DNA from: Micromonospora sp. WMMD1082
Lineage (GTDB): Bacteria; Actinomycetota; Actinomycetes; Mycobacteriales; Micromonosporaceae
DNA: 64,000 bases
Reading direction: 5' to 3'
NCBI RefSeq assembly: GCF_029626175.1
Contig: NZ_JARUBM010000002.1
Span: forward strand, 682,001-746,000
The notes under the pieces are model-generated. The model had not been told where the DNA came from, searched no databases, and worked only from the letters and a program-made list of their open reading frames with translations. Shown piece after piece: positions 42,622 to 58,413 of the stretch. Made by a program: the position numbers and the translations under genes. Each line of letters begins with the position of its first letter. Position 1 is the stretch's first letter.

Positions 42622-42669
42622 CTGCACCTTGGCGGTAACTGCGCTGCACGCTCAGGCGATAGGCTGCAC
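42622..42669 (+). promoter_or_regulatory. Three CTGCAC repeats upstream of the XRE gene
   Basis: CTGCAC occurs at 42622-42627, 42644-42649 and 42664-42669, spaced 22 and 20 bp (two helical turns), in the divergent gap. The last copy is 35 nt from the XRE start. A plausible cooperative operator for the XRE regulator. Confidence 0.4.
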
Positions 42670-42703
42670 TTCAGCCGATGCCGACGCGACAGAAGGCGGC
42701 ACG

Positions 42704-43519: not shown

Positions 43520-44322
43520 GCAGCTACAAAGAGCACCTGCCTATCGCAGTCGAGGCTACGCGGCGGGCGGCGGAAGCGATGCGGCAGCAGTCGCCCGGAG
43601 CGCTCGCCTCCAAGGGTGATCGGGACGTCGTCTCGGAGCTGGACTACGCGATCGAGCGGGACCTCCGAGCCTTCCTGAGTACCGAGACTCCCGACATCGG
43701 CTTCCATGGTGAAGAGGAAGGACCGAGCGGATCGTCAAGCAAGCGATGGGTTCTCGACCCTATCGACGGCACGTCGAACTACGTGCGCGGCCTGCCGTTG
43801 TGCGCGGTGTCGCTGGCGCTCGTGCAGGGAAACGAGGCGGTAGTCGGTGTCATCGAACTGCCGTTTCTCTCCGCTACCTACACCGCCGCGAAGGGATGGG
43901 GTGCCCACGCCAACGGGCAGCGGATCACGGTCAGTAACACCACCTGCCTGAGTCAGGCACTGGTGGCTGTCGGGGACTATGCGGTGGGTCCTGACGCGGA
44001 GACACGCAACCAGCTGCGGCTCGCCTTGACCGGCCAGCTGGCAGCCGAGGTCCAGCGAATACGAATGACCGGCAGTGCGGCACTGGACCTGGCATGGCTT
44101 GCCCACGGCAAACTTGACGCCGCCCTGACCCTATCCAACCATCCGTGGGACATGGCTTCCGGAGTGATCATTGCGCGCGAGGCGGGAGCCGTCGTGATCG
44201 ACGGCCATGGCGCGCGTCATGACATGACATCCACAACCACCCTCGCCATCACACCCGAACTCACCGACCCCATCCTGGCGGCATATCAGAAGGCCATCAC
44301 CATTGTTGCGGATGCACGATGA
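43516..44322 (+). CDS. Inositol-monophosphatase-family protein
   Basis: A 268-residue Mg-dependent phosphatase. Metal-site motifs are intact: HGEEEG (residues 64-69), WVLDPIDGTSNYVRGLPLCAVSL (78-100) and the distal HPWDMASGVIIAREAG (about 213). Family members dephosphorylate myo-inositol phosphate, fructose bisphosphate, histidinol phosphate or PAP; this one is not assignable. GTG at 43516 overlaps the XRE stop, with GGAGG upstream. The ATGA junction with the GNAT gene continues the operon. The nearby regulator and acetyltransferase suggest a small-molecule modification pathway. Confidence 0.88.
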   Translation: MSSYKEHLPIAVEATRRAAEAMRQQSPGALASKGDRDVVSELDYAIERDLRAFLSTETPDIGFHGEEEGPSGSSSKRWVLDPIDGTSNYVRGLPLCAVSLALVQGNEAVVGVIELPFLSATYTAAKGWGAHANGQRITVSNTTCLSQALVAVGDYAVGPDAETRNQLRLALTGQLAAEVQRIRMTGSAALDLAWLAHGKLDAALTLSNHPWDMASGVIIAREAGAVVIDGHGARHDMTSTTTLAITPELTDPILAAYQKAITIVADAR

Positions 44323-44924
44323 CGTGGCGAAGGACGAACTATGCGGCTGGCCACAGCCGCAGCCCGGACCTACAGACCTACGACTCTGACGAGGCCGAGC
44401 AGCTCATCGACGACCTCGTGGCGCTCTATCTGGAAGTTCACGCCGACGAGGGTGAGTTCTACGGTGAGGATCGCTACCGCCGCCAGCTCGGCGCACACCG
44501 GGAACGAACAGAGTGGCAGCTCGTCACCGCCGTGGTCGACGGCGAGCTGATCGGCTACATCTACGGCTTTCCACTTCCGCCGCAGAGCCGGTGGTGGGAG
44601 GGCATCAGGGGTACGGTTCCCGTCGGGTTCACCGACGAGGACGGCCGGCGTACCTTCGCGATCAGCGAGCTGCTGGTGCGGGCCAACTGGCGACGCCAGG
44701 GCGTAGCGCGAGCACTTCACGACCGACTACTCGGCAGCCGTGCCGAGGAGCGCGCCACCCTCCTCGTCCGTCCCGACAACGCGATCGCCCGAAGCGCCTA
44801 CGACTCGTGGGGCTGGGCGCAGCAGGCTCGATTGCGGCCAGGGTGGGAAGACGCACCGGAGTTCATCGTTCTCACCAGAGCCCTACCTCTACCCCCAACC
44901 CCCGACCGCGCAAGGGCCTCGTGA
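44319..44924 (+). CDS. GNAT N-acetyltransferase
   Basis: A 201-residue acetyltransferase. Core motifs: ELIGYIYGF (beta4), FAISELLVRANWRRQGVARALHDRLL (motif A, with R-R-Q-G-V-A for acetyl-CoA pyrophosphate) and ATLLVRPDNAIARSAYDSWGW (motif B). The start overlaps the previous gene by ATGA. A Pro/Arg-rich C-terminus. It probably acetylates an amine product of the same operon or a small toxin or antibiotic; the substrate is unknown. Confidence 0.88.
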   Translation: MTWRRTNYAAGHSRSPDLQTYDSDEAEQLIDDLVALYLEVHADEGEFYGEDRYRRQLGAHRERTEWQLVTAVVDGELIGYIYGFPLPPQSRWWEGIRGTVPVGFTDEDGRRTFAISELLVRANWRRQGVARALHDRLLGSRAEERATLLVRPDNAIARSAYDSWGWAQQARLRPGWEDAPEFIVLTRALPLPPTPDRARAS

Positions 44925-44965
44925 GCGCCACACCGCGACTTCCTGAACGAGGCAAGCTGTGCGGT

Positions 44966-45478
44966 ATGACCAGTCAAAGGGTGCTGGCCCTCGTCGTTTG
45001 CGCCGCCCCGCCGGCACTGCGCATCGGTGAGCTGATCGACTTTCTACAGGAAGACGGCTGGACCGTTTGCCTTACCGCTACGCCAACCGCCGCGACCTGG
45101 ATCGACCGGGAGGCACTGGCGAACCAGACCGGTTACCCCGTCCGGGTCGAGTGGCGAAAGCCTGGCGAGCCCGAGCCGCATCCACCGGCCACGGCCGTCG
45201 CCGTAGTACCGGCTACCTTCAACGTCATCAACAAGTGGGCCCAGGGGATCAACGACACCCTCGCGCTCGGCATCCTCAACGAGACACTCGGTGCCGGCAT
45301 CCCCGTCTACGCCTTTCCGAATGTCAAGGCGCAGCTCGCCGCCCACCCCAGCTACGATCGGCACCTGCGACTAATCCAGGAGGCCGGCGTCGCAGTTTCG
45401 CCACTCCCCAGCGAATGGGATTGGCATGCTGTCGCCAACCGACTCAACGCTCCGGGCAGCGATGCCGCCAGACCGTAG
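44966..45478 (+). CDS. Flavoprotein (PPC-decarboxylase-like fold)
   Basis: A 170-residue protein of the flavoprotein/CoaC-like Rossmann family. VLALVVCAAPPALRIGELIDFLQEDGWTVCLTATPTAATWID is the phosphate-binding first half, and PATFNVINKWAQGINDTLALGILNETLGAGIPVYAFPNVKAQLA the family signature. It would bind FMN or a similar cofactor. ATG 44966 or GTG 44921 (GTGA overlap with the GNAT gene) could start it. Last gene of the operon with XRE, IMPase-like and GNAT. A decayed copy of its gene lies 0.8 kb downstream. Confidence 0.85.
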   Translation: MTSQRVLALVVCAAPPALRIGELIDFLQEDGWTVCLTATPTAATWIDREALANQTGYPVRVEWRKPGEPEPHPPATAVAVVPATFNVINKWAQGINDTLALGILNETLGAGIPVYAFPNVKAQLAAHPSYDRHLRLIQEAGVAVSPLPSEWDWHAVANRLNAPGSDAARP

Positions 45479-45657
45479 CCACGCCGACCGCCACCGTCCG
45501 GGCATTTGCTGGCGAAACGTCGACCACGCTCGTGCCGCATCGAGCAGCGGCTGGCGAGACGGCGCAGGATCTGAACGTGAGACACCTGGTGGTGTCAGGC
45601 GGCTGGACATGCGCAGCTGCCCGTGGGACGACCAACAGTTGGGCTCACCCTGACGCG

Positions 45658-45706
45658 AGATCTTGGACAGTTTCCGTCCAGCGCTAACGGGAACTGTCCA
45701 AGATCT
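45658..45706. repeat. Long inverted repeat between the flavoprotein gene and its decayed copy
   Basis: Twenty-bp arms (45658-45677 and 45687-45706) beginning agatcttggacag, one mismatch, 9-nt loop. The AT-richer arms stand out from the flanking DNA. It resembles a dispersed hairpin element and may terminate the flavoprotein operon. The remainder of 45479-45796 holds no gene. Confidence 0.65.
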
Positions 45707-45796
45707 GGACCCGATGCCGTAGCCGGCCCCGGATTGCCCGTTCACGGTTGCATGACGGGGCACTAACAACACTCACTGCCGAACTCATCTCCTCCC

Positions 45797-46066
45797 GTGC
45801 TGAGCATCGGTGAGCTGATCGACTTACTACAGGAAGACGACTGGACCATCTGCCTCACCGCTACGCCGACCGCCGCAAGCTGGATCGACCGTGAGGCACT
45901 GGCGAAGCAGACCGGCTACCCCGTACGGGCTGAGTGGCGAAAGCCCGGCGAGCCCGAGCCGCATCCACCGGCCACCGCCGTCGCCGTGGTACCGGCCACC
46001 TTCAACGTGATCAACAAGTGGGCTCACGGGATCAACGCTCCGGACAGCGATGCCGCCGCACCGTAG
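45797..46066 (+). pseudogene. Decayed tandem copy of the flavoprotein gene
   Basis: From GTG 45797 it encodes 89 residues nearly identical to the flavoprotein from GELIDFLQEDGW to NKWAxGIN, then jumps to the same last residues (APxSDAAxP). It lacks the N-terminal phosphate-binding strand and about 60 internal residues. The similarity continues downstream to about 46115 (gtcgaccaggctcgtgcc against gtcgaccacgctcgtgcc near 45525). The internal deletion falls where both sides share tcaacg, pointing to microhomology deletion after a tandem duplication. Too short to fold as a flavoprotein. Confidence 0.7.
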
Positions 46067-46117
46067 CCAGGCCCGACCGTCGACCAGGCTCGTGCCACAT
46101 CGCGCAGGGCCGCGCGT

Positions 46118-46501
46118 CTACTGCCAGGACTGCGAACGAGACGCGAAGGTCTCCGGATCGCCGTGGCACGGAATGACGCACACGAGGTGACCGCCCGGAG
46201 CCCGTAAGGTTACGCACTCCAGCCAGCGTCCGACCTCGACGGCGCCGAGGGCGATCAGTCGGCGCGTTTCGGCCTCGACGTCGTCGGTCTCGATGTCGAC
46301 GTGATATCGAGCCTGGTCATCCACGGCCTGAACCGCCAGAATCAGCTCGGGCAATGCGCCGTGCAGAGAGGTGAACTGCTGCTCATCGGGGACCGCACGT
46401 GCCGGCACACCAAGTGCTTCCGACCAGAAGGCGGTGGCCGCGGGTGCCTCACCGCTGGGTACGTCAATGAGGATCGTCGAGAGTCTGCTGCGATGCGCCA
46501 C
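46118..46501 (-). CDS. VOC (glyoxalase/bleomycin-resistance fold) protein
   Basis: A 127-residue single-domain VOC protein: RSRLSTILIDVPSGEAPAATAFWSEALGVPA, then FTSLHGALPELILAVQAVDDQARYHVDIETDDVEAE and VTLRAPGGHLVCVIPC. His and Glu residues of a metal site are partly kept. The family includes glyoxalases, antibiotic-binding proteins and dioxygenases; no specific assignment. GTG 46501 is chosen; a TTG at 46507 is possible. It faces the decayed flavoprotein copy. Confidence 0.82.
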   Translation of the reverse strand: MAHRSRLSTILIDVPSGEAPAATAFWSEALGVPARAVPDEQQFTSLHGALPELILAVQAVDDQARYHVDIETDDVEAETRRLIALGAVEVGRWLECVTLRAPGGHLVCVIPCHGDPETFASRSQSWQ

Positions 46502-46593
46502 GATCAATCATTATCCACATCCAGCTGAACATCCGCCTGCCGCACCGTGACCATCGACTGAGACGAAGCCGACCCACCATTGTGGAGGAAAGC

Positions 46594-46749
46594 ATGGCAA
46601 AGTGCCTGCAACAGGTCAGATCGGTCTACGGCGGCGCCGTCGCACGGAACGGCACCATGGCGCGAGCGATTCGCCGACGACTATTTATCGATCTTGTCCG
46701 CGCGTTGCCTGCACAAACGGGTACGGGCGCGGCGGCAGGGAGGATCTGA
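46594..46749 (+). CDS. Possible 51-residue ORF with a strong ribosome-binding site
   Basis: GGAGGAAAG lies directly before the ATG at 46594. The frame gives MAKCLQQVRSVYGGAVARNG and a basic middle (RAIRRRLFIDLVRALP). Codons such as CTA, TTT and ATT are unlike the neighbours. Either a foreign small gene or a remnant; no family recognised. Confidence 0.25.
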   Translation: MAKCLQQVRSVYGGAVARNGTMARAIRRRLFIDLVRALPAQTGTGAAAGRI

Positions 46750-47251
46750 CGACCGAAGTGGGGTGGACTTGCGCTGCGGACCCGGCGTAGCATCCTGCCC
46801 CATAGAGATCGTCAAACGACTGCCGCTGGTGATCCTCGACAGCGGAACGGGGGAGGTAACGGTCTATGTACTGCCACCGAAACGTCGTTCCCCTGGCGCT
46901 GCTATAGCACCGCGCCCCTTCGGGCTTGGGCGTTGGTTTCCGGAGACCATCACAAGCCTATTGGCCTGATGCCGACTGATGTTCGCCAGCCGCTGACCGA
47001 ACCGCGGACCGCGGTGGCCCGGATCACCTCCTCGCATCCGTAATCGCGACACACACGCCCGAACGCGGCCCGGTCACCACCGCCCAGGGGATGACGTCCA
47101 CCTCCCTCCGCACAGCGGCTACGCGCCGGCCGGCCTCGCCTCGGCCGCCGGTGCGCCGCCGCCTGGAGCGATGCCGCCGACAACTCGGGCAGCAGGTCCG
47201 CTACATGGCCAGATGCACACGGGGCACCAGATGAGAGGGGTTACGCGAACC
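46750..47251. other. Gene-poor stretch before the alpha-oxoamine-synthase operon
   Basis: About 500 nt without a convincing gene. A frame across 46580-46969 has no recognisable domain or codon bias. The operon promoter should lie here. AGAGGGG at about 47235 is the ribosome site of the first biosynthetic gene. No regulator gene is present. Confidence 0.5.
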
Positions 47252-48436
47252 GTGGTGACAGTGGATATCTTCGGTCGCTGCCGGTCATACACCGAGAGCA
47301 GGGAGGCCCGCGCGGCCGGGCTCTACCCGTACTTCACTCCCTTCGAGGGGCAGGACGCGACCGTCGCGCAGACCGCGGACGGCGACATCCTGATGTGCGG
47401 CTCGAACAACTACCTCGGACTCACCTCCGACCCGCGCGTCAAAGCGGCGGCGCAGGCGGCGATCGAGGAGTACGGATCCTCACGTACGGGCTCGCGGCTG
47501 CTCAACGGCAACACACCGCTGCACGAGAAGCTGGAACACGAGCTGGCCGACTTCCTCGGCATGCCGGCCGCACTGGTGTTTCCGACCGGATACCAGGCAA
47601 ACGTCGGGGTGATCGCGTCGCTGCTGTCGCGTCACGACGTGGCCATCCTCGACCGCGAGGCGCACGCCTCGGTCTACGACGGCTGCGGCATGAGCCGAGC
47701 GAAGATCCGCCGATTCGCCCACAACAACATGGACGACCTGGAGCGGCAACTGGCAGCCAGCCCCTCGGACGCCGGCCGGCTGGTCGTGGTGGACGGGGTG
47801 TACTCGATGGCGGGCGATCTGTGCCCGCTGACCGACGTCGTACGGCTGTGCCAGCAGTACGGCGCCCGCCTGCTCGTCGACGACGCGCACGGCATCGGCG
47901 TGCTCGCCGAAGGCCGGGGTACCAGCGCACACTTCGGCGTCACCGATCAGGTCGACCTCGTCACGGTCACCTTCAGCAAGTCGCTGGCGTCGATCGGCGG
48001 TGCGGTGCTCGGTCCGGAGGATGTCATCGAGTACCTGCGCCACCACGCGCGCAGCCTCATCTTCAGCGCGTCCGCGCCACCGGCGAACCTGGCCGCCGCG
48101 TACGCCTCGTTGCGCATCCTGCGGGCGCAGCCGTGGCTGTGCCAGCAGGCGGCGGAGAACGCGTCGTATGTGCGTCGCGAACTCGCCGCCCTGGGTTATG
48201 ACCCGATCCCCAGCGAAACGCCGATCGTGTCGGTGCTGCTCGACGGCATGCAGCAGACCCTGCGCGCGTGGCGCAGCCTGCTGGACCGCGGCGTGTACGT
48301 CAACGCGGTGATCCCCCCGGCGGCTTCGCCCCGGCTGCGCGCAAGCTTCTCCACCACGCATACATCGGAGCAGCTCAAGCGCGTCGTCGCCGCGTTTGCC
48401 GAAGTCCGCGACCTGATGCCCCGGGAGGACCGATGA
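47252..48436 (+). CDS. Alpha-oxoamine synthase (serine-palmitoyltransferase/AONS-like)
   Basis: A 394-residue PLP enzyme that condenses an amino acid with an acyl thioester and loses CO2. PLP-Lys243 sits in TVTFSKSLASIGG; Asp210 and His213 in LLVDDAHGIG; the stacking His138 in REAHAS; substrate loop SSRTGSRLLNGNTPLHEKLE. The SKSLASIGG form is closer to serine palmitoyltransferase than to BioF (SKALG). GTG 47252 follows AGAGGGG; ATG 47231 is the alternative. First gene of a seven-gene operon with UbiA, ThiL-like, epimerase, DAG-kinase-like, glycosyltransferase and acyltransferase. The product is predicted to be an amino-ketone lipid head; the actual acyl and amino-acid substrates are unknown. 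Confidence 0.9.
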   Translation: MVTVDIFGRCRSYTESREARAAGLYPYFTPFEGQDATVAQTADGDILMCGSNNYLGLTSDPRVKAAAQAAIEEYGSSRTGSRLLNGNTPLHEKLEHELADFLGMPAALVFPTGYQANVGVIASLLSRHDVAILDREAHASVYDGCGMSRAKIRRFAHNNMDDLERQLAASPSDAGRLVVVDGVYSMAGDLCPLTDVVRLCQQYGARLLVDDAHGIGVLAEGRGTSAHFGVTDQVDLVTVTFSKSLASIGGAVLGPEDVIEYLRHHARSLIFSASAPPANLAAAYASLRILRAQPWLCQQAAENASYVRRELAALGYDPIPSETPIVSVLLDGMQQTLRAWRSLLDRGVYVNAVIPPAASPRLRASFSTTHTSEQLKRVVAAFAEVRDLMPREDR

Positions 48437-49419
48437 CCGTCAGCCAGCTCGAACCCACAGTCACCGTCCGAGATCAGGTGGTGGCCTGGGCGCGGATGTG
48501 GCGGCTCCACTTCGTGCCCTTCTCGCTGTCGGCCGGTCTGGTCGGCATGACCGCGCCGCCGGTCGGGGCCAGCGCCGCGAGCATCGTGATCGGGCTGCTG
48601 TTCTGCACCCTCGGATACGGCGTCGGCGTGGTCATCAACGACTGGTTCGACCGCAAGGCCGACGCGGTCAACGCGCCGGACCGCCCGTTCGTCACCGGGC
48701 TGATAAACCCCCACGTCGGCCTCGGGCTGACGCTCGCGATGTCCACCGCCCTGATGGTGGTGGCCATCGTTGTCGCACCGACGCTGGCGCTGTGGAGTGT
48801 CATCGCGATCGGCGGGCATCTGGTCTACTCCTGGACCAAGCGCATTCCCATGCTGGGCAACCTCGTCAACGGCGTCGACATGGCGCTGTTCACGGTGCTC
48901 GGGGCCGTGGCCGTCCGACCCGACGCCGGATGGCTCGACATCCCGGCGGTGACCTGGTTCCAGACGGCGCTCGTCGCGGTCGTGTTCAGCGGCTTCTGCC
49001 TCGTCGGGTACTTCAAGGACATCGAGGGCGACCGGGTCGCGGGCTACCGCACGCTGCCGGTGGCCATCGGCACCAGGGCCTCCGCCCGGATCGCCGTGGT
49101 GTTCCCGGTCGTGGCGGTGGTGGCCGCGGGCGCGGCCGCCGTGGCGGGCTCCGGCCGCACGGGTACCTATGCCGAGATCGCCTTCTGGGGGCTACTCGTC
49201 GCGGCCGGGCTCGGGTTCACACAGAGCCTCGTGACGCTCATCCGGGCACCGGAGACCCGGGCGTACGAGGCGCTGGTCTGGTTCATCCGGGCGACCACAC
49301 TGTTCTTCCTGTCGCTCGGCGCGCTGCACCGACCGACGCTCTTCCTTGTCGCCGCCGTTCCGATGATGGCCTATCTGGAGCTGACGCTGCGCGCGACCCA
49401 ATCGTCCCGGCAGGCGTGA
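48433..49419 (+). CDS. UbiA-family prenyltransferase
   Basis: A 328-residue integral-membrane prenyltransferase with eight to nine helices. The first Asp-rich motif is NDWFDRKADAVNAPDRP (69-85, N-D-x2-D-x3-D). The second is GYFKDIEGDRVAGYRTLPV (D-x3-D), closest to the DGGGP/chlorophyll-synthase/UbiA-like type. It transfers an isoprenyl group from a diphosphate to an acceptor at the membrane. ATGA overlap with the oxoamine synthase. No prenyl-diphosphate synthase is in the window, so the donor comes from primary metabolism. It suggests that the pathway product is prenylated or that the acceptor is an amino-lipid. Confidence 0.92.
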   Translation: MTVSQLEPTVTVRDQVVAWARMWRLHFVPFSLSAGLVGMTAPPVGASAASIVIGLLFCTLGYGVGVVINDWFDRKADAVNAPDRPFVTGLINPHVGLGLTLAMSTALMVVAIVVAPTLALWSVIAIGGHLVYSWTKRIPMLGNLVNGVDMALFTVLGAVAVRPDAGWLDIPAVTWFQTALVAVVFSGFCLVGYFKDIEGDRVAGYRTLPVAIGTRASARIAVVFPVVAVVAAGAAAVAGSGRTGTYAEIAFWGLLVAAGLGFTQSLVTLIRAPETRAYEALVWFIRATTLFFLSLGALHRPTLFLVAAVPMMAYLELTLRATQSSRQA

Positions 49420-49420
49420 C

Positions 49421-50470
49421 GTGACCTCTACCGCCTGGAACCGGCTGTCCCTGAACGCGGCCGAGGGCAGCCTGATCACCGCGATACGCGAGTGCATGGT
49501 CCGGTCGCCGCGGCAACTCAACAACGCCTTCGAGGCCGACGCCGAGCTACTCGATCTGGGTGCCGCCGGGCTCCTGGCGATGACGATCGACACGTTAAAC
49601 AACGGAGCCGAACTTGCCACCGTCACCACGCCGTACGCGAAGGGGTGGTTGACCACCACCGTCAGCGTCAGTGACCTCGCCGCGGTGGCCGCCGACCCGG
49701 TCGCGGTGCTTGTCTCCTGCTCGCTGCGCCGCGACAAGTGGACCCTCGATGACGCCCGCGAGTTCGGGCGCGGCGCGTCCGACGCCGCCGAACGGTACGG
49801 CTGCCACATCGTGGGCGGCGACACCAACTGGGCCGACGAGGAAAGCTTCACCTCGTGCGCCCTCGGCACCGTCCCTCGCGGATCGGTGCTGAGCCGGGTC
49901 GGTGCTCGGCCCGGCGACGCGCTGTATGTGACCGGCCCGATCGGCGCCGGCAACGCGGTCGGCTTCCGTGCCCTGGCCCTCGGCGGTACGGGGGAAGGCG
50001 AGCCGTGGCTTCCTGAGGCGCGGGTGGCCGCGGGCGATCCACTGCGCCGGTACGCGCGGGCGTGCATCGACACCAGTGACGGGCTGTTGAGCGCGGCGGT
50101 CAGCCTCGCCGAGCTGAACGGTCTGGGGACCGAGGTGGTGCTGCGCGATGAGGTGTACGCACCGATCGTTTCCGCCATCGCCGACTCGGCGCAGCTGCCT
50201 CGGTGGTGTTCGGCCGCTGCCGAGTGGGGCGAGTTCGAGCTGCTGTACGCGGTCGACCCCGCCGACGCGGAGCAATGCGCCCAGGCGCTGTCGGAACGCG
50301 GCCTGCATCCCACCCACGTGGGACAGCTGGTCGCCGGCCCGGAGCTGTTGCTCTTCGACGAGTCGGGCGAACGCCGAGAACTACGGAACCTGCTGCTGCG
50401 CATGCGGGCGCTCGACCCGGCCGGGTCGTTGCTGGCCGATCTGCGGGCCCTGCTGGCGGGAGGCACCTGA
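49421..50470 (+). CDS. ThiL-like (AIR-synthase-fold) kinase
   Basis: A 349-residue member of the PurM/ThiL/SelD/HypE superfamily. It keeps ThiL features: TIDTLNNGAELA, GWLTTTVSVSDLAAVAADP, IVGGDTNWADE and CIDTSDGLLSAAVSLAE. The N-terminal GDDAA metal loop of thiamine-phosphate kinase is replaced by FEADAELLD. It is unlikely to be the cell's thiamine kinase because of its context between UbiA and an epimerase; it may phosphorylate or activate a pathway intermediate. GTG start 1 nt after the UbiA stop. Substrate unknown. Confidence 0.85.
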   Translation: MTSTAWNRLSLNAAEGSLITAIRECMVRSPRQLNNAFEADAELLDLGAAGLLAMTIDTLNNGAELATVTTPYAKGWLTTTVSVSDLAAVAADPVAVLVSCSLRRDKWTLDDAREFGRGASDAAERYGCHIVGGDTNWADEESFTSCALGTVPRGSVLSRVGARPGDALYVTGPIGAGNAVGFRALALGGTGEGEPWLPEARVAAGDPLRRYARACIDTSDGLLSAAVSLAELNGLGTEVVLRDEVYAPIVSAIADSAQLPRWCSAAAEWGEFELLYAVDPADAEQCAQALSERGLHPTHVGQLVAGPELLLFDESGERRELRNLLLRMRALDPAGSLLADLRALLAGGT

Positions 50471-51465
50471 TGGGGTCCGGTGTCGCGCTGGTGACGGGGG
50501 TCACCGGCTGTGTCGGCCGCGCGGTCGCCGCCGCGCTGCGGGAACAGGGCTGGTCGGTGCGCGGGCTGGTGCGGGCGCCCACGCCGGAGCACGCGGCGTA
50601 CGCGACGCACGTCGGTGACCTGACCGATCCGGAGTCGCTACGCGGCTCCTGCGCGGACGTGGAACTCGTGGTGCACGCAGCCGCCGATCTGACCGACTGG
50701 CGACCTGGCCGTCGCATCTGGCGAGTGAACCAGGACGGCACCCGCGCAATGCTGGACGAGGCGCGGCGCGGCGGCGTCTCCCGATTCGTCTACCTGAGCA
50801 CCGTCGACGTCTTCGGTTTTCACGCGGCGAAGGTCATCGACGAGGCGTCGCCACGGCGGGTACCGCGATACCCGTACCCGCAGTCGAAAGCTGCCGGGGA
50901 GGAGCTGGCGTGGTCATACCACGGGAACGGTCTGGATGTCACGGTGGTGTACCCCGCCTGGGTGTTCGGCCCCGGCGACCGCAACTTCCTGCCCGAGCTC
51001 GTGCGCGGGCTGCGGGACAACAGGCTCGTCCAGTTCGACCGCGGCGCACCCCCGATCGAGGTGACCTACAGCGCCAACCTGGCCGACGCGATCGTGCTGG
51101 CCGGCACCACCCCCGGCTGCGCGGGCGGCCGGTTCATCGTGGGCGACTCGTACGGCCTGTCCCTGGGTGAGCTGATCGCCGCGGTGGCCGAGCGGATCGG
51201 GGCACGGCCGCCTACCTCGTCGATCCCCTTCGGTGCGGCGCTGGCGGCGGGAGCACTGTCCGAACTGGCCGGGTGGGCCGGCGTCGGCACCAGATCCGGA
51301 CGGCCGCTGCTCACCCGCTACGCGGTTCGGTCCGTTGCCGGAGGAATGCGGTACGACGTCGGCCGGATCCGGTCGATCGGCTACTCACCCCGGTTCGGGT
51401 TCGCGGAGGCACTGAGCCACACCCTGGCGAAACTGGCGATGGAGCAGGCGCATGGCAGCCGATGA
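50470..51465 (+). CDS. NAD-dependent epimerase/3-ketoreductase-like SDR
   Basis: A 331-residue extended SDR. NAD motif TGVTGCVG at the N-terminus; YLSTVDVFGF carries the catalytic Ser/Thr; YPQSK is the Tyr-x3-Lys dyad; WVFGPGD and NLADAIVLAG follow. The form resembles 3-beta-HSD/CerR-type reductases more than sugar epimerases. Bacterial ceramide synthesis uses such an enzyme (CerR) to reduce the 3-keto group made by the oxoamine synthase. ATG overlaps the ThiL-like stop by 1 nt (TGATG). It is the plausible second step of this pathway. Confidence 0.9.
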   Translation: MGSGVALVTGVTGCVGRAVAAALREQGWSVRGLVRAPTPEHAAYATHVGDLTDPESLRGSCADVELVVHAAADLTDWRPGRRIWRVNQDGTRAMLDEARRGGVSRFVYLSTVDVFGFHAAKVIDEASPRRVPRYPYPQSKAAGEELAWSYHGNGLDVTVVYPAWVFGPGDRNFLPELVRGLRDNRLVQFDRGAPPIEVTYSANLADAIVLAGTTPGCAGGRFIVGDSYGLSLGELIAAVAERIGARPPTSSIPFGAALAAGALSELAGWAGVGTRSGRPLLTRYAVRSVAGGMRYDVGRIRSIGYSPRFGFAEALSHTLAKLAMEQAHGSR

Positions 51466-52372
51466 GCACGACCCGGTCGTCTGCATCGTCAACCCCGCGT
51501 CCGGGGTCCAGCGCGGGCGCACGATCGAGCAGCGGATCGCCGCAGAGCTACCCGAAGCGCAGTGCTGGTCCACCCGCCATCCCGGGCACGGCATCGCCCT
51601 CGGGCGGCAGGCAGTCGAGGACGGGTACGGCACGGTGGTGGCCGTCGGCGGCGACGGCACGCTGTCCGAGGTGGCCAACGGGATGCTGGCGGCGGGCGGG
51701 GAGAAGGTGCGGCTCGCGTACGTGCCGGCCGGTACCTGCAACGACTTCGCTCGCGGCCGGCAGCCGGTCGCCCACCTCGGTGACCTGCTCGATCGTACCC
51801 GCGACCGGGAAACCGACGTCGGCACGGTGACCTTCACCCGCCCCGACGGTACGCCGGGCCACCGGTACTTTCTCGTCAGCGGTACGGTCGGCCTGATCAG
51901 TGTGATCGGTCAGCGGTTCACCGAGAAGACACCGGTCAACCGGGTGCTCAAGCGGCTCAACCTGCCACTCGCCCAGACGGCGTCCAGCCTCGGGACACTG
52001 GCCCGCTGGCGGCCCGTCGCGGTGCGGTGGGAACTCGACGGCGAACCGTCCCACCAGATCGTCACCAATCTCGCCGTGCTCAAGGTGCCGTACTTCGCCG
52101 GTGGGCTGACCTTCGGTCGCACCCAGCCGGCGCAGGCGGGATACCTGGACGCGGTGCGGGTGGCGGGTGTCGGCCGCATCGGCGTGGTCGGGCTGATGTG
52201 GCGAGTGTTCCGCGGTGCCGCTGCGGGACACCCGGCAATCCACCGGCAGGAGGTCCGCACCGTGCGCATCGACGCGGACAGCCCGCTGCCGGTGGAGGTG
52301 GACGGCGAGATCGTCGGACACACCCCGGCCGAGTTCTCGATACATCCGTCGTGCCTGGCGACGGTGGTATGA
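51452..52372 (+). CDS. Diacylglycerol/sphingosine-kinase-family lipid kinase
   Basis: A 306-residue DAGK-catalytic protein: VCIVNPASG, VVAVGGDGTLSEVANGML and VRLAYVPAGTCNDFARG, followed by the typical beta-domain (KVPYFAGGLTFGRTQPAQAGYLD) and a PVEVDGEIVG ending. The family phosphorylates diacylglycerol, sphingosine or ceramide at the membrane. With an oxoamine synthase and a ketoreductase beside it, a sphingoid-base or ceramide-like acceptor is plausible (compare CpgB of Caulobacter). Starts inside the previous gene (14-nt overlap). Confidence 0.9.
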   Translation: MAADEHDPVVCIVNPASGVQRGRTIEQRIAAELPEAQCWSTRHPGHGIALGRQAVEDGYGTVVAVGGDGTLSEVANGMLAAGGEKVRLAYVPAGTCNDFARGRQPVAHLGDLLDRTRDRETDVGTVTFTRPDGTPGHRYFLVSGTVGLISVIGQRFTEKTPVNRVLKRLNLPLAQTASSLGTLARWRPVAVRWELDGEPSHQIVTNLAVLKVPYFAGGLTFGRTQPAQAGYLDAVRVAGVGRIGVVGLMWRVFRGAAAGHPAIHRQEVRTVRIDADSPLPVEVDGEIVGHTPAEFSIHPSCLATVV

Positions 52373-52392
52373 ACCCAGCGAGGGAGCGACCC

Positions 52393-53709
52393 ATGTCCAC
52401 TCCGCGTGCGTTTCACATCGGACTCGTGGTTCCCGACTACACCGGTCACCTCAGTCCGATGGCCACGCTCGGCAGGGAACTGGTTCGGCGCGGCCACCGG
52501 GTCACCCTGGTTTCCCTGCCGGACGCCGCAACGAAGTCGTTCACGGCCAGGTTCGCCTTCGCGCCGATCGGCGAGCGCGAGTTTCCGGTGGGCTCGCTGG
52601 CCCGCTTCTCCGAGGAGCAGGGCCGGCTGAGTGGCCTGGCCGCGATCCGCTTCATCGTCCGCGGGTACGTGCGCGAGGTCGAGGTTCTGCTGCGGGATCT
52701 GCCGGTCCTGGTGGCGAAGCACGGCATGGACGCACTGCTGGTGGACCAGGTCTACGGCGCGGGCAACTCCGTCGCGGAACACCTCGACATTCCGGTCGTG
52801 AACGTGTGCAACGCGCTGGCGCTGAACACCGAGCCGGGTGTGCCGCCGTTCATGACGGCGTGGCCGTACCATCCGTCGCTGCTCGCGCGGGCCCGCAACA
52901 TGCTGGGTGACCAGGTGATCGCCTGGGTCATCCGGCCGGTGCTGCAACGGATCAACGAACGTCGCGCCGCGTGGGGCCTGCGGCCGGTCAACGGAGTCAA
53001 CGACGGATCGGACCTCGCCCAGATCACCCAACAGCCGCCGTTCTTCGACTTCCCGCGTATGCGACTGCCGGACTCGTTCCACTACACCGGCCCGTTCCAC
53101 GACGAGGACAGCACCGAGCCGGTGCCGTTCCCCTGGGAGAAGCTCGACGACCGCCCGTTGATCTACGCCTCGATGGGTACCCTCCAGAACCGCCTCCCGC
53201 GCATATTCGAGGCGATCGCCGAGGCGTGTGCCGGGCGTGACGCGCAACTGGTCGTCTCCCTCGGCAGCACGGACGTCGAGCCGCCGACCGGCCTCGCCGG
53301 CAACCCGATCGTGGTCCGGTACGCGCCTCAGCTCGATCTGCTGGCGCGGGCGTCTCTCGTCATCACGCACGCCGGAATCAACACCGCGCTGGAGTCACTC
53401 GCCCACGGCGTACCGATCGTCGCACTGCCCGTGGGCAACGACCAGCCGGGCGTGGCCGCCCGGCTCAAGTACCTCGGCGCGGGCGAGTTCATCCCGGTGC
53501 ACAAGGTGACTCCGGCGCGGCTGCGGGCGGCCATCGACACGGTGCGCGGCGACCCTGCCTACCGGGCGAAGGCGCAGCACTACAAACGCCGAATCGCGGA
53601 GTTGGACGGGGTGCGGCGCGCGGCCGACATCGCGGAGGAGGCGTTCCGGACGCGTCAGCCGGTACGCAGACAGGAGTTGTCCGACACCACGGAGGGTGGC
53701 CGCCGATGA
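52393..53709 (+). CDS. CrtX-like GT1 glycosyltransferase
   Basis: A 438-residue GT-B glycosyltransferase. N-terminal acceptor domain IGLVVPDYTGHLSPMATLGREL; nucleotide-sugar domain with YAPQLDLLARASLVITHAGINTALESLAHGVPIVALPVGNDQPGVAARL, the PSPG-like box. Nearest type is zeaxanthin glucosyltransferase/MGT. ATG 52393 has AGGGAG 7 nt upstream; an ATG at 52369 overlaps the kinase stop by 4 nt. It probably adds a sugar to a hydroxyl on the operon's lipid product. ATGA overlap with the acyltransferase. Confidence 0.92.
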   Translation: MSTPRAFHIGLVVPDYTGHLSPMATLGRELVRRGHRVTLVSLPDAATKSFTARFAFAPIGEREFPVGSLARFSEEQGRLSGLAAIRFIVRGYVREVEVLLRDLPVLVAKHGMDALLVDQVYGAGNSVAEHLDIPVVNVCNALALNTEPGVPPFMTAWPYHPSLLARARNMLGDQVIAWVIRPVLQRINERRAAWGLRPVNGVNDGSDLAQITQQPPFFDFPRMRLPDSFHYTGPFHDEDSTEPVPFPWEKLDDRPLIYASMGTLQNRLPRIFEAIAEACAGRDAQLVVSLGSTDVEPPTGLAGNPIVVRYAPQLDLLARASLVITHAGINTALESLAHGVPIVALPVGNDQPGVAARLKYLGAGEFIPVHKVTPARLRAAIDTVRGDPAYRAKAQHYKRRIAELDGVRRAADIAEEAFRTRQPVRRQELSDTTEGGRR

Positions 53710-54896
53710 CAGCGCAGGCGGGACGCATGGCCCGGCAGTTGCCGACGCTCAACGGGTTGCGGGGGGTCGCCGCGGTCACGGTCTTCTTCTCCCACACGAC
53801 GCTGTTCGGCTTCTTCGCCGACCAGCGGATCGACGACTGGTGGTACGCCACCCTCAGCCGTACCGGATCTGCTGCCCTCGGCTTCTTCTTCATCCTCAGC
53901 GGTTTCGTCCTGACCTGGTCGGCTGCCGACTACGAGCCGAAACGCCGGTTCTGGCGCCGCCGAGCCGCCCGGATCCTGCCGAACCACCTGGTCGTCTGCG
54001 CCGCGGTCATCGTGCTCATGGTCCTGGTCCGCGGTGGCGCGCCGCTGTGGCCGACGCTGGCGAACGTCACGCTGGTGCAGAGCTGGATTCCAAACGAGTT
54101 CATCTTCAACGGAATCAATCCACCGAGCTGGTCGCTGAGCTGTGAGATCTTCTTTTACGCGTCGTTCCCGTGGCTGCTCGCCGGGTTTCGGCGGCTCTCC
54201 CCTACCTGGCTCTGGTCGATCGCAGCCGGCATCGTCGCCGCGACGCTGGTCGCACCCGTCTTCTCCACCACGTTCCTTCCGGCCGAGCCGACGTACACCT
54301 ACGCGGACGCAGCATTCCCGCAGTTCTGGTTCGTGCAACAGTTTCCGTTGATCCGGATGCTGGACTTCGTCCTCGGGATCGTCATCGCCCAGCTCGTCAT
54401 GCGGGGCAAGTGGTTCAGGCTAAGCCTGCCCGCCGCCGCCCTCATCACGGTGGCCTTCTACGGCATCTCCCAGGTCGTGCCGCTGCTCTACTCGGTGGTC
54501 GCGGCGATGATCATCCCGCTCTCGTTGCTGGTGGCTGCCGCGGCGCGGGCGGACGTCGAGGGACACCGCTCACCGCTGCGCGGGCGGGTCGCCGGCTGGC
54601 TGGGCGACACGTCCTTCGCCTTCTACCTCATTCACATCCTGGTCTTGTACGGCGCCAGCAACGTGTCCCCGGACGGTTTCGGTATCACGGCTGCGCTGGC
54701 CGTCATGGTCGGCGCCTACCTGGCCACGCTCGGCCTGGCATGGCTGCTCCACGCCCGCGTGGAACGGCCGATGATGCGCCGGTTCGCCAGCTCCCGACCC
54801 CGAGAGCGGGCCGCCGGGCCTGCGCCCGCCGTGCCGCCCGCCATCGAGCCGTTGCCGGTGACGACGGGTGACGGGACGCCAGTCCGCGAGCGTTAG
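53706..54896 (+). CDS. Acyltransferase-3 (OafA/NodX-like) membrane protein
   Basis: A 396-residue membrane O-acyltransferase with about ten helices. Family landmarks: LPTLNGLRGVAAVTVFFSHTTLFGFF (with the conserved His), FFFILSGFVLTW, RRRAARILPNHL, SWSLSCEIFFYASFPWL and a late FAFYLIHILVL. These proteins add acetyl or longer acyl groups to sugars at the membrane, so this one may acylate the sugar placed by the glycosyltransferase. Last gene of the operon; ends at a terminator shared with the P450. The 40-residue C-terminus is Pro/Arg-rich. Confidence 0.92.
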   Translation: MTAQAGRMARQLPTLNGLRGVAAVTVFFSHTTLFGFFADQRIDDWWYATLSRTGSAALGFFFILSGFVLTWSAADYEPKRRFWRRRAARILPNHLVVCAAVIVLMVLVRGGAPLWPTLANVTLVQSWIPNEFIFNGINPPSWSLSCEIFFYASFPWLLAGFRRLSPTWLWSIAAGIVAATLVAPVFSTTFLPAEPTYTYADAAFPQFWFVQQFPLIRMLDFVLGIVIAQLVMRGKWFRLSLPAAALITVAFYGISQVVPLLYSVVAAMIIPLSLLVAAAARADVEGHRSPLRGRVAGWLGDTSFAFYLIHILVLYGASNVSPDGFGITAALAVMVGAYLATLGLAWLLHARVERPMMRRFASSRPRERAAGPAPAVPPAIEPLPVTTGDGTPVRER

Positions 54897-54918
54897 ACGA
54901 CCGCCGGCGGCGAACGGC

Positions 54919-54953
54919 TGCCCTGGCTGATCCTGTCCGGATCAGCCAGGGCA
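54919..54953. terminator. Terminator between the seven-gene operon and the P450
   Basis: Perfect 15-bp inverted repeat (tgccctggctgatcc / ggatcagccagggca) with a 5-nt loop. Serves both convergent transcripts. Confidence 0.85.
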
Positions 54954-54958
54954 CCAGC

Positions 54959-56299
54959 TCACCTGAGGTTCAGCGTTGCCCGGACCGCGCCAGCCGGACG
55001 CAAGGTGACCCTCGGCACGACATCCAGCCGCTCGCCGCGCGTGTCGACCCGGTAGCGGGCGAGCAACGCGCTCAGCAGTACGGTCATCTCCAGCAGCGCG
55101 AAGTGTTCCCCGATGCAGCTGCGCGGCCCACCACCGAAGGGGAAGTACGCGTAGCGCGGCCGCTCCTGCCGGCCGAGGAACCGGTCGGGCTCGAAGCGCT
55201 CCGGATCGGGCCAGAACTCCGGATGCCGGTGGGTGACCCAGGGGGTGATCACCACCTTGGTGTTGGCCGGGATCCGGTAGCCGGAGACGACAACGTCGGA
55301 TTCGGACATCCGCTCCATGCTGTACACCGGCGGGTACAGCCGCATGCCCTCCATGATTGCGGCCCGCACCAACTCGTCGTCGCCCGTGCCGATCTCGGCC
55401 GCGACCCGCTCCTGCACCTCGGGATGCCGACCCAGCAGGTGCATGGTGAAGGCCAGCCCGGCCGAGGTCGTCTCGTGTCCGGCGAGCAGGAACACCAGCA
55501 CCTGATCCCGGATCTCTTCGATGGACAGCGCCTGCCCGGTCTCCGGATCTTCGGCCGCGAACAATCGACCGAGGAGATCCTCGTTCTCCTCGCCGCCCGC
55601 CCGGCCCTGGCGGTCGGCGATGATGCGGTCGACGATCTCGTACTGCGTCGCGCGTACCTGCGCGATCCGGCGCGACCGCGGCGTCGGCCAGCGCAGCGGC
55701 AACTTGACCACCTGTAGGGCGCGCGCCAGCGCGAGATCACCCAGAATCGGCATGAGCTCCTGCAGACGGGGGACGACCTCGTCGATGTCGTCGCCGAACA
55801 GCGCCCGGCCGACCACCCGCATGGTATAGCGCTGCATGACCTGGTACAGATCCACGACGGATCCCGCGGTGACCGCCATGTCGTCGACGACGCGGGCCGC
55901 TTCCTCGGCCATCAGCTCGGTGTAGCGGGCCACCCGGCGCGGCGTGAACAGCGGTTGCAGCGTCCGTCGCTGCCGCCGCCACCGGTCTTCCTCGCTGGTC
56001 AGCAGGCCCTCGCCGATGAACTCACGAAGGATCTCGTACGCGCTCGCGCGGCGGCTGAAGACCTGCGGCGTGGTAAGGACCTGGTGGATGCCGTCGGGGT
56101 GGTGCACGTTCACCACGTCCACGCTCACCGCGCGCGGACCCCAGGGCAGTCCGACGTGGTATGCCACCACGTCGCCGTACTGATGGAAGCCGTCCAGGAT
56201 CGATCCCAGCAGGTCCTCGCGGAGTGCCGGCAGCATGCCGAGGAGCGGATGCCCGGTCGGACCCGGTACGGCGGCGGCCTTGGAAACCTGTGTCGTCAC
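54959..56299 (-). CDS. Cytochrome P450
   Basis: A 446-residue heme monooxygenase. I-helix AGHETTS (273-279), K-helix E317-x2-R320 (EGMRLYP), PERF region (FEPDRFLG) and the heme loop FPFGGGPRSCIGEHF with Cys395. The extended N-terminus (PGPTGHPLLGMLPALRED) and overall form are of the class II/fatty-acid-hydroxylase-like type, also similar to CYP102-type domains. GTG at 56299 has GGGGGA upstream. Convergent with the seven-gene operon and probably part of the same pathway, where it could hydroxylate the acyl or prenyl chain. Redox partners are not in the window. Confidence 0.94.
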   Translation of the reverse strand: MTTQVSKAAAVPGPTGHPLLGMLPALREDLLGSILDGFHQYGDVVAYHVGLPWGPRAVSVDVVNVHHPDGIHQVLTTPQVFSRRASAYEILREFIGEGLLTSEEDRWRRQRRTLQPLFTPRRVARYTELMAEEAARVVDDMAVTAGSVVDLYQVMQRYTMRVVGRALFGDDIDEVVPRLQELMPILGDLALARALQVVKLPLRWPTPRSRRIAQVRATQYEIVDRIIADRQGRAGGEENEDLLGRLFAAEDPETGQALSIEEIRDQVLVFLLAGHETTSAGLAFTMHLLGRHPEVQERVAAEIGTGDDELVRAAIMEGMRLYPPVYSMERMSESDVVVSGYRIPANTKVVITPWVTHRHPEFWPDPERFEPDRFLGRQERPRYAYFPFGGGPRSCIGEHFALLEMTVLLSALLARYRVDTRGERLDVVPRVTLRPAGAVRATLNLR

Positions 56300-56412
56300 G
56301 GTGATCCCCCGTTCAGCGAATCGACGTACGTCGACCATGTTTCCACACGCCGCGCCACTGCATCAGCCGGTGAACGGTGCGCACGCCCGGCCGCGCCCGC
56401 GGTGGCCGCTAC

Positions 56413-58068
56413 TCACCAGTGGCGGTACGCGGCCCAGTCGAAGTCCGCGTACCCGCCCTCGGCGCCCAGATCCTGAACCCACAGGCCGACGAACGCCCCG
56501 GTGAAGCCCCAGCCGTCCGGCTCACCATCCACAAGGGTCGCCGCATACTCGTCCGACAGGATCGTGGCGTCCAGCTCCACCGGCAGGTCGACCCAGCCCG
56601 CCGCACCGGCCAGCTGATAGGCGAACGTGACGCGCGGACCGTCGAAGGTGACCCGCAGCGTGATCTCGTCCACCTCCGGTAGTTCGATGCGGCACGCGTC
56701 GTGCATGGTGCGCCGGCCGTTGTCCGACGACAGCACCTCCAGCACCGGCCGCCCGTTGTCGTCGGCGGTCACATAGGCGTAGTGCCAGTTGCGGGTGTTG
56801 TAGTAGGCGGTGACGCCAGCGAGCTGGCGGTAGTTGGCCGGCGCGAAATGCAGGTGTGCGGTCAGCTCGCACTGCTTCGAGGTCACGCGACGCGCGACCA
56901 GGCTCGGGCGCTGCCGGCCGACCGGCGACTGCCCACCCTGAATCCGCAGGAACGAGGGGCGCGACGTGAGATCCACCCAGTCCGCAGTGGCGGGGCGGCG
57001 CAGCGTCGACCACTCCGGGCCGAGCACCGGCTCGGTAAAGTCGTCACGCTCCTCCGCCAGGTCCGCTGCCGGCTCAGCCTCACCCGGCACGGGTACGACC
57101 ACCGCCGGAATGCCCCCCTCGATGCTCGGCCACTCCCCCTGCGGCCATTGCACCGCCTGGATTGCGGTCTCCCGGCCAAGCACGCACCGACCGAGTGGGG
57201 TGTACGGCCGGGCGGTCAGGTGCGCCAGGTACCAACGCCCGTCCGGGGTGGACACCAGGCTGCCGTGGCCGGCCTTCTGCAGCTCCAGCTCCGGGCGACC
57301 GTACGAGGTGAGCAACGGGCCGGCCGGATCGGCCTCGTACGGCCCGAACAGGCTACGGGAGCGGGCCACGGTCACCTGGTGCTCCCAGGACGTGCCACCC
57401 TCCGCGGTCACCAGGTAGTACCAGCCATCCTTCTGGTACAGGTGCGGACCTTCGGTGACACCGACGGAGGTGCCCTGGAAGATGATCCGTTCGGCACCGA
57501 CAAGGCGCCGGGCCTCGCGGTCGTACTGCTGGATCTGAATGCCCGCGAACCGATCGCGGCCCGGCCGCCAGTCGGCGGTCATCGACAGCATCCAGGTGGT
57601 GCCGTCCTCGTCGTGGAACAGCTCCGCGTCGAACCCGCGCCCATGCAGCACCACCGGGTCCGACCAGGGCCCGGCCAGGTCGCGCGCGGTCACCAGATAG
57701 TTCTGCGGATCCCAGTACCCGCTGGCGAAGCTTGCCACGTCGGCGTACAGGAGATAGAACTCGCCGTCCATATAGGATAGATCGGGCGCCCAGACACCGC
57801 AGGAGTCACCCGCTCCGGTGAGGTCGAGAAGCCGCCGCTCGGTGAGGACGCCACCGAGCGGACGCCAGTTGACCAGGTCGGTCGAGTGGTGCAGCCGGAC
57901 GCCGGGGTACCACTCGAAAGTCGACGTGGCGATGTAGTAGTCGGTGCCGACGCGCAAAATCGACGGGTCAGGGTTGAAGCCGGGTAGCACCGGGTTTCGA
58001 ATCAGCCGGCCGGGCACCTCGCCGCCGTGGGGCCCAACCGTTGTCGGGCTCTTTGTTGCGGTCGTCAT
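56413..58068 (-). CDS. GH43 beta-xylosidase/arabinofuranosidase
   Basis: A 551-residue cytoplasmic glycoside hydrolase. Five-bladed propeller with catalytic Asp in NPDPSI (base), SCGVWAPDLSYMDG (pKa modulator) and Glu in VTEGPHLY (acid). The C-terminal beta-sandwich (about 345-551, GQSPVGRQRPSLVARR) is typical of GH43 subfamily XynB1 exo-xylosidases. It releases xylose from xylo-oligosaccharides. GGAGAATCGAC precedes the ATG at 58068. The operator CGAAA-G-TTTCG lies 28 nt upstream; expression is probably controlled by a xylan-responsive regulator outside the window. Lies 113 nt upstream of the P450 gene but is functionally unrelated. Confidence 0.94.
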   Translation of the reverse strand: MTTATKSPTTVGPHGGEVPGRLIRNPVLPGFNPDPSILRVGTDYYIATSTFEWYPGVRLHHSTDLVNWRPLGGVLTERRLLDLTGAGDSCGVWAPDLSYMDGEFYLLYADVASFASGYWDPQNYLVTARDLAGPWSDPVVLHGRGFDAELFHDEDGTTWMLSMTADWRPGRDRFAGIQIQQYDREARRLVGAERIIFQGTSVGVTEGPHLYQKDGWYYLVTAEGGTSWEHQVTVARSRSLFGPYEADPAGPLLTSYGRPELELQKAGHGSLVSTPDGRWYLAHLTARPYTPLGRCVLGRETAIQAVQWPQGEWPSIEGGIPAVVVPVPGEAEPAADLAEERDDFTEPVLGPEWSTLRRPATADWVDLTSRPSFLRIQGGQSPVGRQRPSLVARRVTSKQCELTAHLHFAPANYRQLAGVTAYYNTRNWHYAYVTADDNGRPVLEVLSSDNGRRTMHDACRIELPEVDEITLRVTFDGPRVTFAYQLAGAAGWVDLPVELDATILSDEYAATLVDGEPDGWGFTGAFVGLWVQDLGAEGGYADFDWAAYRHW

Positions 58069-58095
58069 GTCGATTCTCCGTAGCGGTAGCCGCGT

Positions 58096-58106
58096 CGAAA
58101 GTTTCG
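58096..58106. promoter_or_regulatory. Xylan-regulator operator CGAAA-G-TTTCG
   Basis: A perfect 5-bp inverted repeat around one base, 28 nt before the GH43 start. The same CGAA-N-TTCG core is bound by BxlR-type LacI repressors of xylan operons in Streptomyces (known for that family). The rest of the 345-nt gap to 58413 shows no gene. Confidence 0.55.
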
Positions 58107-58413
58107 GCGACGTTCCATCGCCGGATCGGCACAGGGTAGCCCCCGGTACGCCTTAGTGACAATGTCGACGGCCAGTACGTCTTGCCATGTTCGACGCCCC
58201 TTGTTTTCCGGAAGTTGTTCCGACAGTTCCCGGATCGAACACGGCGGTAGGGGAGACCTCGACCTGACCGGCTCATCGGATCGATTGCGCGCCGAGGTCT
58301 TGCCTGATCGATGCCCGGCTGCACAGGATACGGAGACGCTCGATCAGCGTACGTAGATCCACCGACGCCTGGGTCACTCCGGCGGGTAGGTCTTCCACCT
58401 ATGAGGAGGTTCC

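Follow-up and report, generated by a model that had tools for sequence, protein, structure and literature searches.

Bacterial ceramide pathways use an alpha-oxoamine synthase (AOS), an epimerase-type SDR (CerR) and a DAGK-type kinase (ceramide kinase), and DAGK-family lipid kinases act on ceramide in some bacteria. According to PMC12134224, Pseudomonas fluorescens produces sphingolipids as secondary metabolites through a polyketide synthase (PKS) cluster whose AOS has SPT activity, and several Actinobacteria have sphingolipid-making potential (citing Stankeviciute et al. 2022). For Bacteroides, PMC9278070 states that BT_0972, the keto reductase, does not form a cluster with SPT. The locus described here lies in a 64,000-nucleotide stretch of DNA from Micromonospora sp. 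WMMD1082 (the window; the source genome is 7.44 Mb in two contigs). It joins an SPT-like AOS, an SDR and a DAGK-type kinase to a UbiA-family prenyltransferase, a ThiL-like protein and a UDP-glycosyltransferase (GT). This unusual combination of enzymes belongs to a biosynthetic unit that is real, conserved and mobile. The original prediction for this DNA knew of no described pathway with such a gene set; no match was found in a partial literature check, which does not establish absence from print.

A conserved and mobile six-gene core

The core comprises, in order, the genes for the AOS, the UbiA, the ThiL-like protein, the SDR, the DAGK and the GT, and spans ~6.5 kb. The UbiA was detected at E <= 1e-50 in 12 of 354 genomes of the family (window included), namely eight Micromonospora, again counting the window, and four Plantactinospora (g269). 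These carriers are exactly the 12 genomes with the closest AOS (77-100% identical). In the DNA neighbourhoods of the other 11 carriers (L005-L012 and L025-L027), all of which were compared, the six core genes were present in identical order every time. A metagenome-assembled genome of the Lentisphaeria (L013), 40% identical over the matched segment, was left out of this synteny count; a gene caller tuned to high GC recovered a single gene there. Core proteins were 85-95% identical to those of the window in a group of seven relatives and 72-82% identical in a group of four. Conserved co-occurrence, suggested as a check for eight genes, holds for the core six, while the acyltransferase-3 gene (AT3, 9 of 11 other loci) and the P450 gene (7 of 11) are optional. 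The glyoxalase-like and GH43 genes of the periphery were likewise each present in 7 of 11.

The genes are tightly coupled. Seven plus-strand genes, from the AOS to AT3 (47252-54896), nearly all overlap or touch, and a convergent P450 gene follows. ATGA joints link the AOS to the UbiA (48433-48436) and the GT to AT3 (53706-53709), the UbiA and ThiL-like genes are one base apart (49419/49421), and the ThiL-like and SDR genes share a TGATG joint at 50470. The SDR and DAGK genes overlap at 51452-51465, and the DAGK/GT joint is either an ATGA at 52369 or an ATG at 52393 with GAGGGAG ahead. These joints and the convergent P450 agree with the first description of the locus, and the families it gave for all eight genes were borne out by Pfam and NCBIfam profile searches. 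Its extent (47252-56299) needed revision: the coupled block is real, but the unit in lineage A (defined below) is longer, at ~46107-58229, and adds the glyoxalase-like and GH43 genes.

Simple estimates of dN/dS (non-synonymous to synonymous substitution rates), made for each relative against the window, were 0.14-0.25 for the AOS and 0.15-0.45 for the remaining five genes of the core; the core genes are under purifying selection. The highest values, 0.57-0.71, were those of AT3 in lineage B, so the constraint on AT3 is weaker. Motifs of the AOS, UbiA, ThiL-like and DAGK proteins were found in 12 of 12 sequences. For the SDR and the GT, the first patterns matched 8 and 10 of 12 sequences respectively and looser patterns matched all 12. 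The AT3 patterns were found in 6/10 and 7/10 sequences, with L007 and L012 lacking a pattern within residues 1-60 of their extracted reading frames. The GH43 patterns matched 7/8 and 3/8, and the pattern of the glyoxalase-like VOC-fold protein 7/8.

Two lineages were distinguished, lineage A (window, L005-L010 and L025) and lineage B (L011, L012, L026 and L027). In lineage A, DNA is common to the window from ~46107 to ~58229 with a few gaps, and none is common outside these limits in the flanks compared (window 40000-64000), which amounted to 1.7-7.6 kb upstream and only 0.6-1.2 kb downstream per relative. Lineage B keeps the core in different surroundings. A GH3 gene lies upstream, on the minus strand, in L011 (5406-7772), L012 (5590-7845) and L026 (5147-7408), and its place is taken in L027 by epimerase-type and UDP-glucose-dehydrogenase-type genes. 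Downstream, L011 has another P450 (28% identical), L012 an anthrone-oxygenase-like gene, L026 a metallo-beta-lactamase-fold gene and L027 an MFS transporter. In the AOS tree, L025, which belongs to the genus Plantactinospora, falls inside lineage A, and L012 (M. sonchi) falls inside lineage B. These two cross-genus placements, together with the changing surroundings, indicate horizontal movement: the core six and their periphery are a horizontally mobile biosynthetic unit of the Micromonosporaceae. The window holds no tRNA, hence no tRNA attachment site was found; no search for integrases was made.

Relatives of the UbiA are rare beyond the carriers. Only 50 were found at E <= 1e-20 among 7998 scored candidates, and in a phylum sample the sole genome with a match at E <= 1e-30 was the source genome itself (1/396). 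The AOS was found at E <= 1e-110 in 4/396 genomes of the phylum/class samples (the source genome and three at 46% identity) and at E <= 1e-90 in 1/394 of a second phylum/class sample, again only the source genome. When 38 UbiA clusters (among 50 listed) were compared with 21 AOS clusters (among 120 listed), five of the UbiA clusters had a putative source contig in common with one of the AOS clusters. All five putatively paired UbiA clusters derive from UbiAs at 74-77% identity; the more distant UbiA relatives are 39-66% identical. Among plasmids, a search with the UbiA returned 15 records with 28-33% identity across roughly half of the protein; the named genes in them were ChlG or archaeal-type.

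Enzyme families of the core

The AOS gene (47252..48436, plus strand) has a preferred GTG start at 47252, with 47231 or 47261 possible. Its product is a fold type I pyridoxal phosphate (PLP) enzyme with the catalytic residues and the PLP lysine, and its TFSKS motif is present in 12/12 sequences. The best NCBIfam model was SerpalmtaseCFB (Bacteroidetes-type SPT, NF047600; 420 bits), ahead of beta-proteobacterial SPT (379), BioF (368) and the KBL-type models (325 and 321); scores against the SPT models NF047599 and NF047603 were 379 (cut-off 500) and 317 (cut-off 670). The best solved relative was SPT (chains 8guh and 3a2b, which we take to be from S. multivorum), and the residues aligned to N52, S81, H138, D210, H213, K244 and R367 of the S. 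multivorum enzyme, presumably catalytic there, are all kept. In a tree of 52 rows, in which the references were few and long-branched (four SPT, two BioF and one KBL), the AOS was set apart from BioF and KBL with 94/95 support and fell among SPT-like proteins of actinobacteria and Chloroflexi that make up a larger family.

A role as the BioF of biotin synthesis was rejected, based on the NCBIfam ranking, the separation in the tree, and the presence elsewhere in the genome of a gene with bioF as its best model (381.8 bits, cut-off 426) adjoining bioD (110.7 bits, cut-off 83.3). The AOS therefore does not group with BioF, the placement named in the original prediction as contrary to it, and its SPT-like character was upheld.

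At E <= 1e-90, the AOS was found in 18 of the 354 family genomes. The six that are not among the UbiA carriers have an AOS 46-68% identical to that of the unit. Five of these six AOS regions were gene-called, and no match to the unit UbiA, ThiL-like protein, SDR or GT was found at E <= 1e-5. In three of them (L072, L073 and L075) the AOS lies near a gene ~30% identical to the unit DAGK, and L074 has no such gene. The Jidongwangia-type cluster of L071 (7534-15453) holds genes for a ketoacyl synthase, an AOS, an MFS protein, a methyltransferase, an MMPL protein and a CAAX-protease-like protein. A match to the AOS was also found in 701 plasmid records, of which the best 50 were listed. Neighbourhoods were compared for Streptomyces NBC_00015, Rubrobacter, Priestia and Bacteroides plasmids, and two of them proved informative. 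The Bacteroides finegoldii record has a DAGK-family gene adjoining an SPT that exceeds the curated cut-off, and the neighbours of the SPT-like AOS in Rubrobacter (L051) are genes for a GNAT, an epimerase-type SDR and an LTA-synthase-family protein; AOS+DAGK and AOS+SDR pairings thus exist elsewhere. The compact Rubrobacter radiotolerans set (L051, 5908-11500) is likely an actinobacterial ceramide-lipid operon. As this AOS family is used in several settings, the acyl partner in the present unit is unreadable from sequence.

The UbiA-family prenyltransferase (48433..49419, plus strand) belongs to a rare branch and has two Asp-rich motifs and the UbiA fold. In profile searches of solved chains, digeranylgeranylglyceryl phosphate (DGGGP) synthase scored 57.9 bits, chlorophyll synthase 53 bits and a chain labelled 4-hydroxybenzoate octaprenyltransferase, an Aeropyrum UbiA homolog, 44 bits. 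By fold, the top score was that of this Aeropyrum chain; only UbiA and prenyl-synthase-type chains stood out among the matches listed. The protein was below the cut-offs of the NCBIfam DGGGP-synthase models (NF009522, 76 against 353 bits; NF009521, 73 against 296; NF009512, 37 against 278). It may nevertheless work like DGGGP synthase.

The next gene (49421..50470, plus strand) encodes a ThiL-like protein of the AIR-synthase superfamily. The GGDT and SDG motifs are kept, and the EGxHF and GGDDYE regions, which are substrate motifs, are altered. The possibility that it is the thiamine kinase of the genome was rejected; its score with TIGR01379 was below the cut-off (161.5 against 184.15 bits), and a better ThiL (256 bits) is encoded elsewhere. 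The predicted structure had a pLDDT of 33 and was not used. Because the genome also holds the BioF-type gene, this better ThiL and four polyprenyl synthase genes, the genes of the unit do not serve as its housekeeping copies, and genes elsewhere can supply prenyl donors.

The SDR (50470..51465, plus strand) is of the extended, epimerase/3beta-HSD type by Pfam and NCBIfam, with a YxxSK active-site pattern in 12/12 sequences, and is a candidate 3-keto reductase. The DAGK/YegS-type lipid kinase (51452..52372, plus strand; PF00781, 82.1 bits against 23.6; PF19279) has GGDGT in 12/12 sequences and is one of five DAGK_cat matches in the genome; finer NCBIfam models were below their cut-offs. The GT (52393..53709, plus strand; start possibly 52369) is of the macrolide/UDPGT type (TIGR01426, 172 bits against a cut-off of 260) and is kept in 11/11 relatives.

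The product and competing explanations

There is good support for a single pathway encoded by these genes, and the pathway first suggested, leading to a prenylated, glycosylated and acylated sphingoid-like base, is plausible; its extent and its division into core and periphery are improved here, and acylation, for which AT3 would be responsible, is optional. We tentatively propose, with rather less than even confidence, that the unit makes a glycosylated, isoprenoid-bearing amino-alcohol lipid by means of the six core enzymes. Judging from its family and active site, the SPT-like AOS would form an alpha-amino-beta-ketone by condensing an acyl thioester with an amino acid, probably serine, and the SDR would reduce the ketone. 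The DAGK-type kinase would then act in the manner of sphingoid and ceramide kinases and phosphorylate the primary alcohol, and the UbiA would put a prenyl chain on an oxygen or nitrogen of the amino-alcohol phosphate. The ThiL-like protein might carry out a further ATP-dependent step, possibly from phosphate to diphosphate, this being the most speculative assignment, and the GT would attach a sugar. AT3, the P450 and the linked glycosidase would be optional tailoring enzymes that depend on the lineage. The combination of AOS, reductase and lipid kinase suggests an amino-alcohol lipid, the fixed UbiA a prenyl chain and the GT a sugar.

DGGGP synthase prenylates the hydroxyl of a phosphorylated lipid, and this fits a kinase that acts first. 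In the reading that we prefer, prenylation takes the position that N-acylation has in ceramides. A fuller version, which is unlikely as a whole, puts a DGGGP-synthase-like UbiA in the place of a ceramide synthase: it would prenylate the O or N of a sphingoid-type amino-alcohol phosphate, with the DAGK and the ThiL-like protein acting in series on the lipid alcohol. The resulting hybrid of sphingolipid and archaeal-type ether lipid would then be glycosylated, and this would represent a third route to membrane-type or secreted lipids.

Several observations weigh against an isoprenoid-bearing amino-alcohol lipid. The AOS scores 420 bits where the curated SPT cut-off is 640, and is SPT-like only; a coriobacterial-type AOS (522 bits) and the Rubrobacter AOS (444 bits) both score higher with the same model. 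The four SPT references formed no single group in the tree. Among the family genomes, the nearest AOS that does not belong to the unit, that of L071 (68% identical), is in a ketoacyl-synthase context, with the other core genes unmatched. The best NCBIfam models for the SDR, OleD (137 bits) and HpnA (126 bits), fall well short of their cut-offs (580 and 368), and the SDR is 36% identical to the Rubrobacter SDR over 187 residues only; the DAGK is 25% identical to the Bacteroides DAGK over 157. The unit's genes include no prenyl-diphosphate synthase and, unlike ceramide clusters, no N-acyltransferase (GNAT or ceramide-synthase-type), and the role of the ThiL-like protein is unexplained.

An alternative that is possible, but for which we would not hold out great hope, is that the AOS uses a short or polyketide acyl group bound to an acyl carrier protein (ACP) or coenzyme A, and that the amino ketone becomes an aromatic or heterocyclic scaffold (e.g. 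a pyrrole or pyridone) which is C-prenylated by the UbiA; the product would be a glycosylated meroterpenoid instead of a sphingoid lipid. Aromatic rings are common prenylation acceptors of UbiA enzymes, the GT is of a macrolide/natural-product type, and the L071 AOS adjoins a ketoacyl synthase, an MFS protein and a methyltransferase. However, no ketosynthase or ACP was found among the ten annotated genes of the unit (the flanks of the relatives being mostly unscanned), a core DAGK-type lipid kinase is hard to reconcile with an aromatic product, and the profile ranking of the UbiA favours DGGGP and chlorophyll synthases, though its top match by fold is the Aeropyrum homolog.

Less probable is a series of kinases acting on one lipid alcohol, in which the DAGK would make the monophosphate and the ThiL-like protein a diphosphate donor for the UbiA, while the AOS and SDR make the acceptor. 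Plants provide a precedent for serial lipid-alcohol kinases in the pair of phytol kinase and phytyl-phosphate kinase, and ThiL itself converts a monophosphate to a diphosphate. Both kinase-type genes are core (11/11), the ThiL-like protein has changed EGxHF and GGDDYE regions but retains the GGDT and SDG motifs, and the lack of a prenyl synthase among the unit's genes would be accounted for. Such salvage is not needed, however, because the genome has four polyprenyl synthase genes, and the model of the ThiL-like protein is not usable.

Ordinary bacterial synthesis of ceramide or ceramide phosphate with extra decoration appears improbable. The AOS, the epimerase-type reductase and the DAGK-type kinase are classes of the ceramide pathway, though the AOS and reductase match it at the family level only, and Actinobacteria with ceramide genes are mentioned in PMC12134224. 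Against this, the unit contains no GNAT (one at 44319-44924 is outside the conserved unit), and the Rubrobacter GNAT used as a query found nothing in the genome at E <= 0.001, in a search that had no positive control. The UbiA and the ThiL-like protein are core and yet have no place in ceramide synthesis.

Finally, chance assembly or hitch-hiking of unrelated genes, which the variable AT3, P450 and GH43/GH3 genes might suggest, was already disfavoured and is scarcely credible given six coupled genes under purifying selection in a fixed order in two lineages at ~75% identity with different surroundings.

Periphery, significance and described systems

Upstream of the core, a glyoxalase_6/VOC-fold protein of 127 aa is encoded divergently from the operon (46118..46501, minus strand; PF18029, 61.8 bits), and is 85-91% identical in 7/11 relatives, all of lineage A; it may serve to bind the product or to confer resistance to it. 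The presumed promoter region (46720..47251, plus strand) is partly conserved in lineage A, with gapped blastn matches from ~46720 on in L005-L010 and L025. Downstream, AT3 (53706..54896, plus strand; PF01757) is an optional membrane protein. The P450 (54959..56338, minus strand; PF00067; 7/11 relatives) is found in lineage A only; its best solved relative is 7wzl, followed by CYP102-type chains and 3dbg. In the gap between these convergent genes lies a perfect hairpin with a 15-bp stem (54919..54953). The region 54905-54965 has a predicted RNA fold of -38.7 kcal/mol (z -5.1), and an inverted (reverse-complement) match of the hairpin stretch was also found in L006, L007, L009 and L025. This hairpin is likely a bidirectional terminator. 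No Rfam match was obtained in 45500-58600.

The GH43 glycosidase (56413..58068, minus strand; PF04616, 310 bits), with a beta-xylosidase-type C-terminal domain (PF17851, 183 bits), is also confined to lineage A (7/11 relatives). A linked glycosidase is present in 11 of 12 carriers, as GH43 in the eight of lineage A and as GH3 in three of the four of lineage B. Speculatively, this linkage hints at a step in which the sugar is taken off again, whether to allow export, to activate the product or to protect the producer. Beyond the conserved edges, ORFs for HTH/DUF5919, inositol monophosphatase, GNAT and flavoprotein-domain proteins lie at 42575-45690, with a somewhat lower GC content than their surroundings, and a TipAS/MerR-type regulator is encoded at 62535-63293 (minus strand) on the 3' side.

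If the proposed pathway is correct, a small transferable gene set would link sphingoid bases with prenyl-ether lipids in actinobacteria, in which drugs are sought, and the AOS, UbiA and ThiL-like enzymes would each widen the known substrate range of their own family. Cluster finders built on ketosynthase or peptide synthetase cores might be expected to miss the unit, as neither is among its annotated genes. The six-gene core could be expressed whole in a laboratory Streptomyces host, making the product directly testable.

Five known systems come closest to the unit. ThiL shares its superfamily with the ThiL-like protein, which retains two of its motifs but has its own altered regions and a score below the ThiL cut-off, in a genome with a separate ThiL. 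Archaeal DGGGP synthase (6m31 and 7bpu) has the UbiA fold and is the closest solved sequence relative of the unit UbiA, at ~18% identity by structure alignment. The Jidongwangia-type cluster resembles the unit in its AOS and differs in its neighbours. The sgaAB system of P. fluorescens MYb115 (PMC12134224) likewise has a secondary-metabolite AOS with SPT activity and a presumed keto reductase, SgaC; its cluster has an iterative PKS and the window unit has none, and words starting with 'prenyl' or 'glycosyl' do not occur in the main text of that article. Bacterial ceramide clusters (SPT, CerR and bCerS) share with the unit the pairing of an SPT-like AOS and an epimerase-type SDR; the window unit has no GNAT among its genes and adds the UbiA, the ThiL-like protein and the GT as a fixed core.

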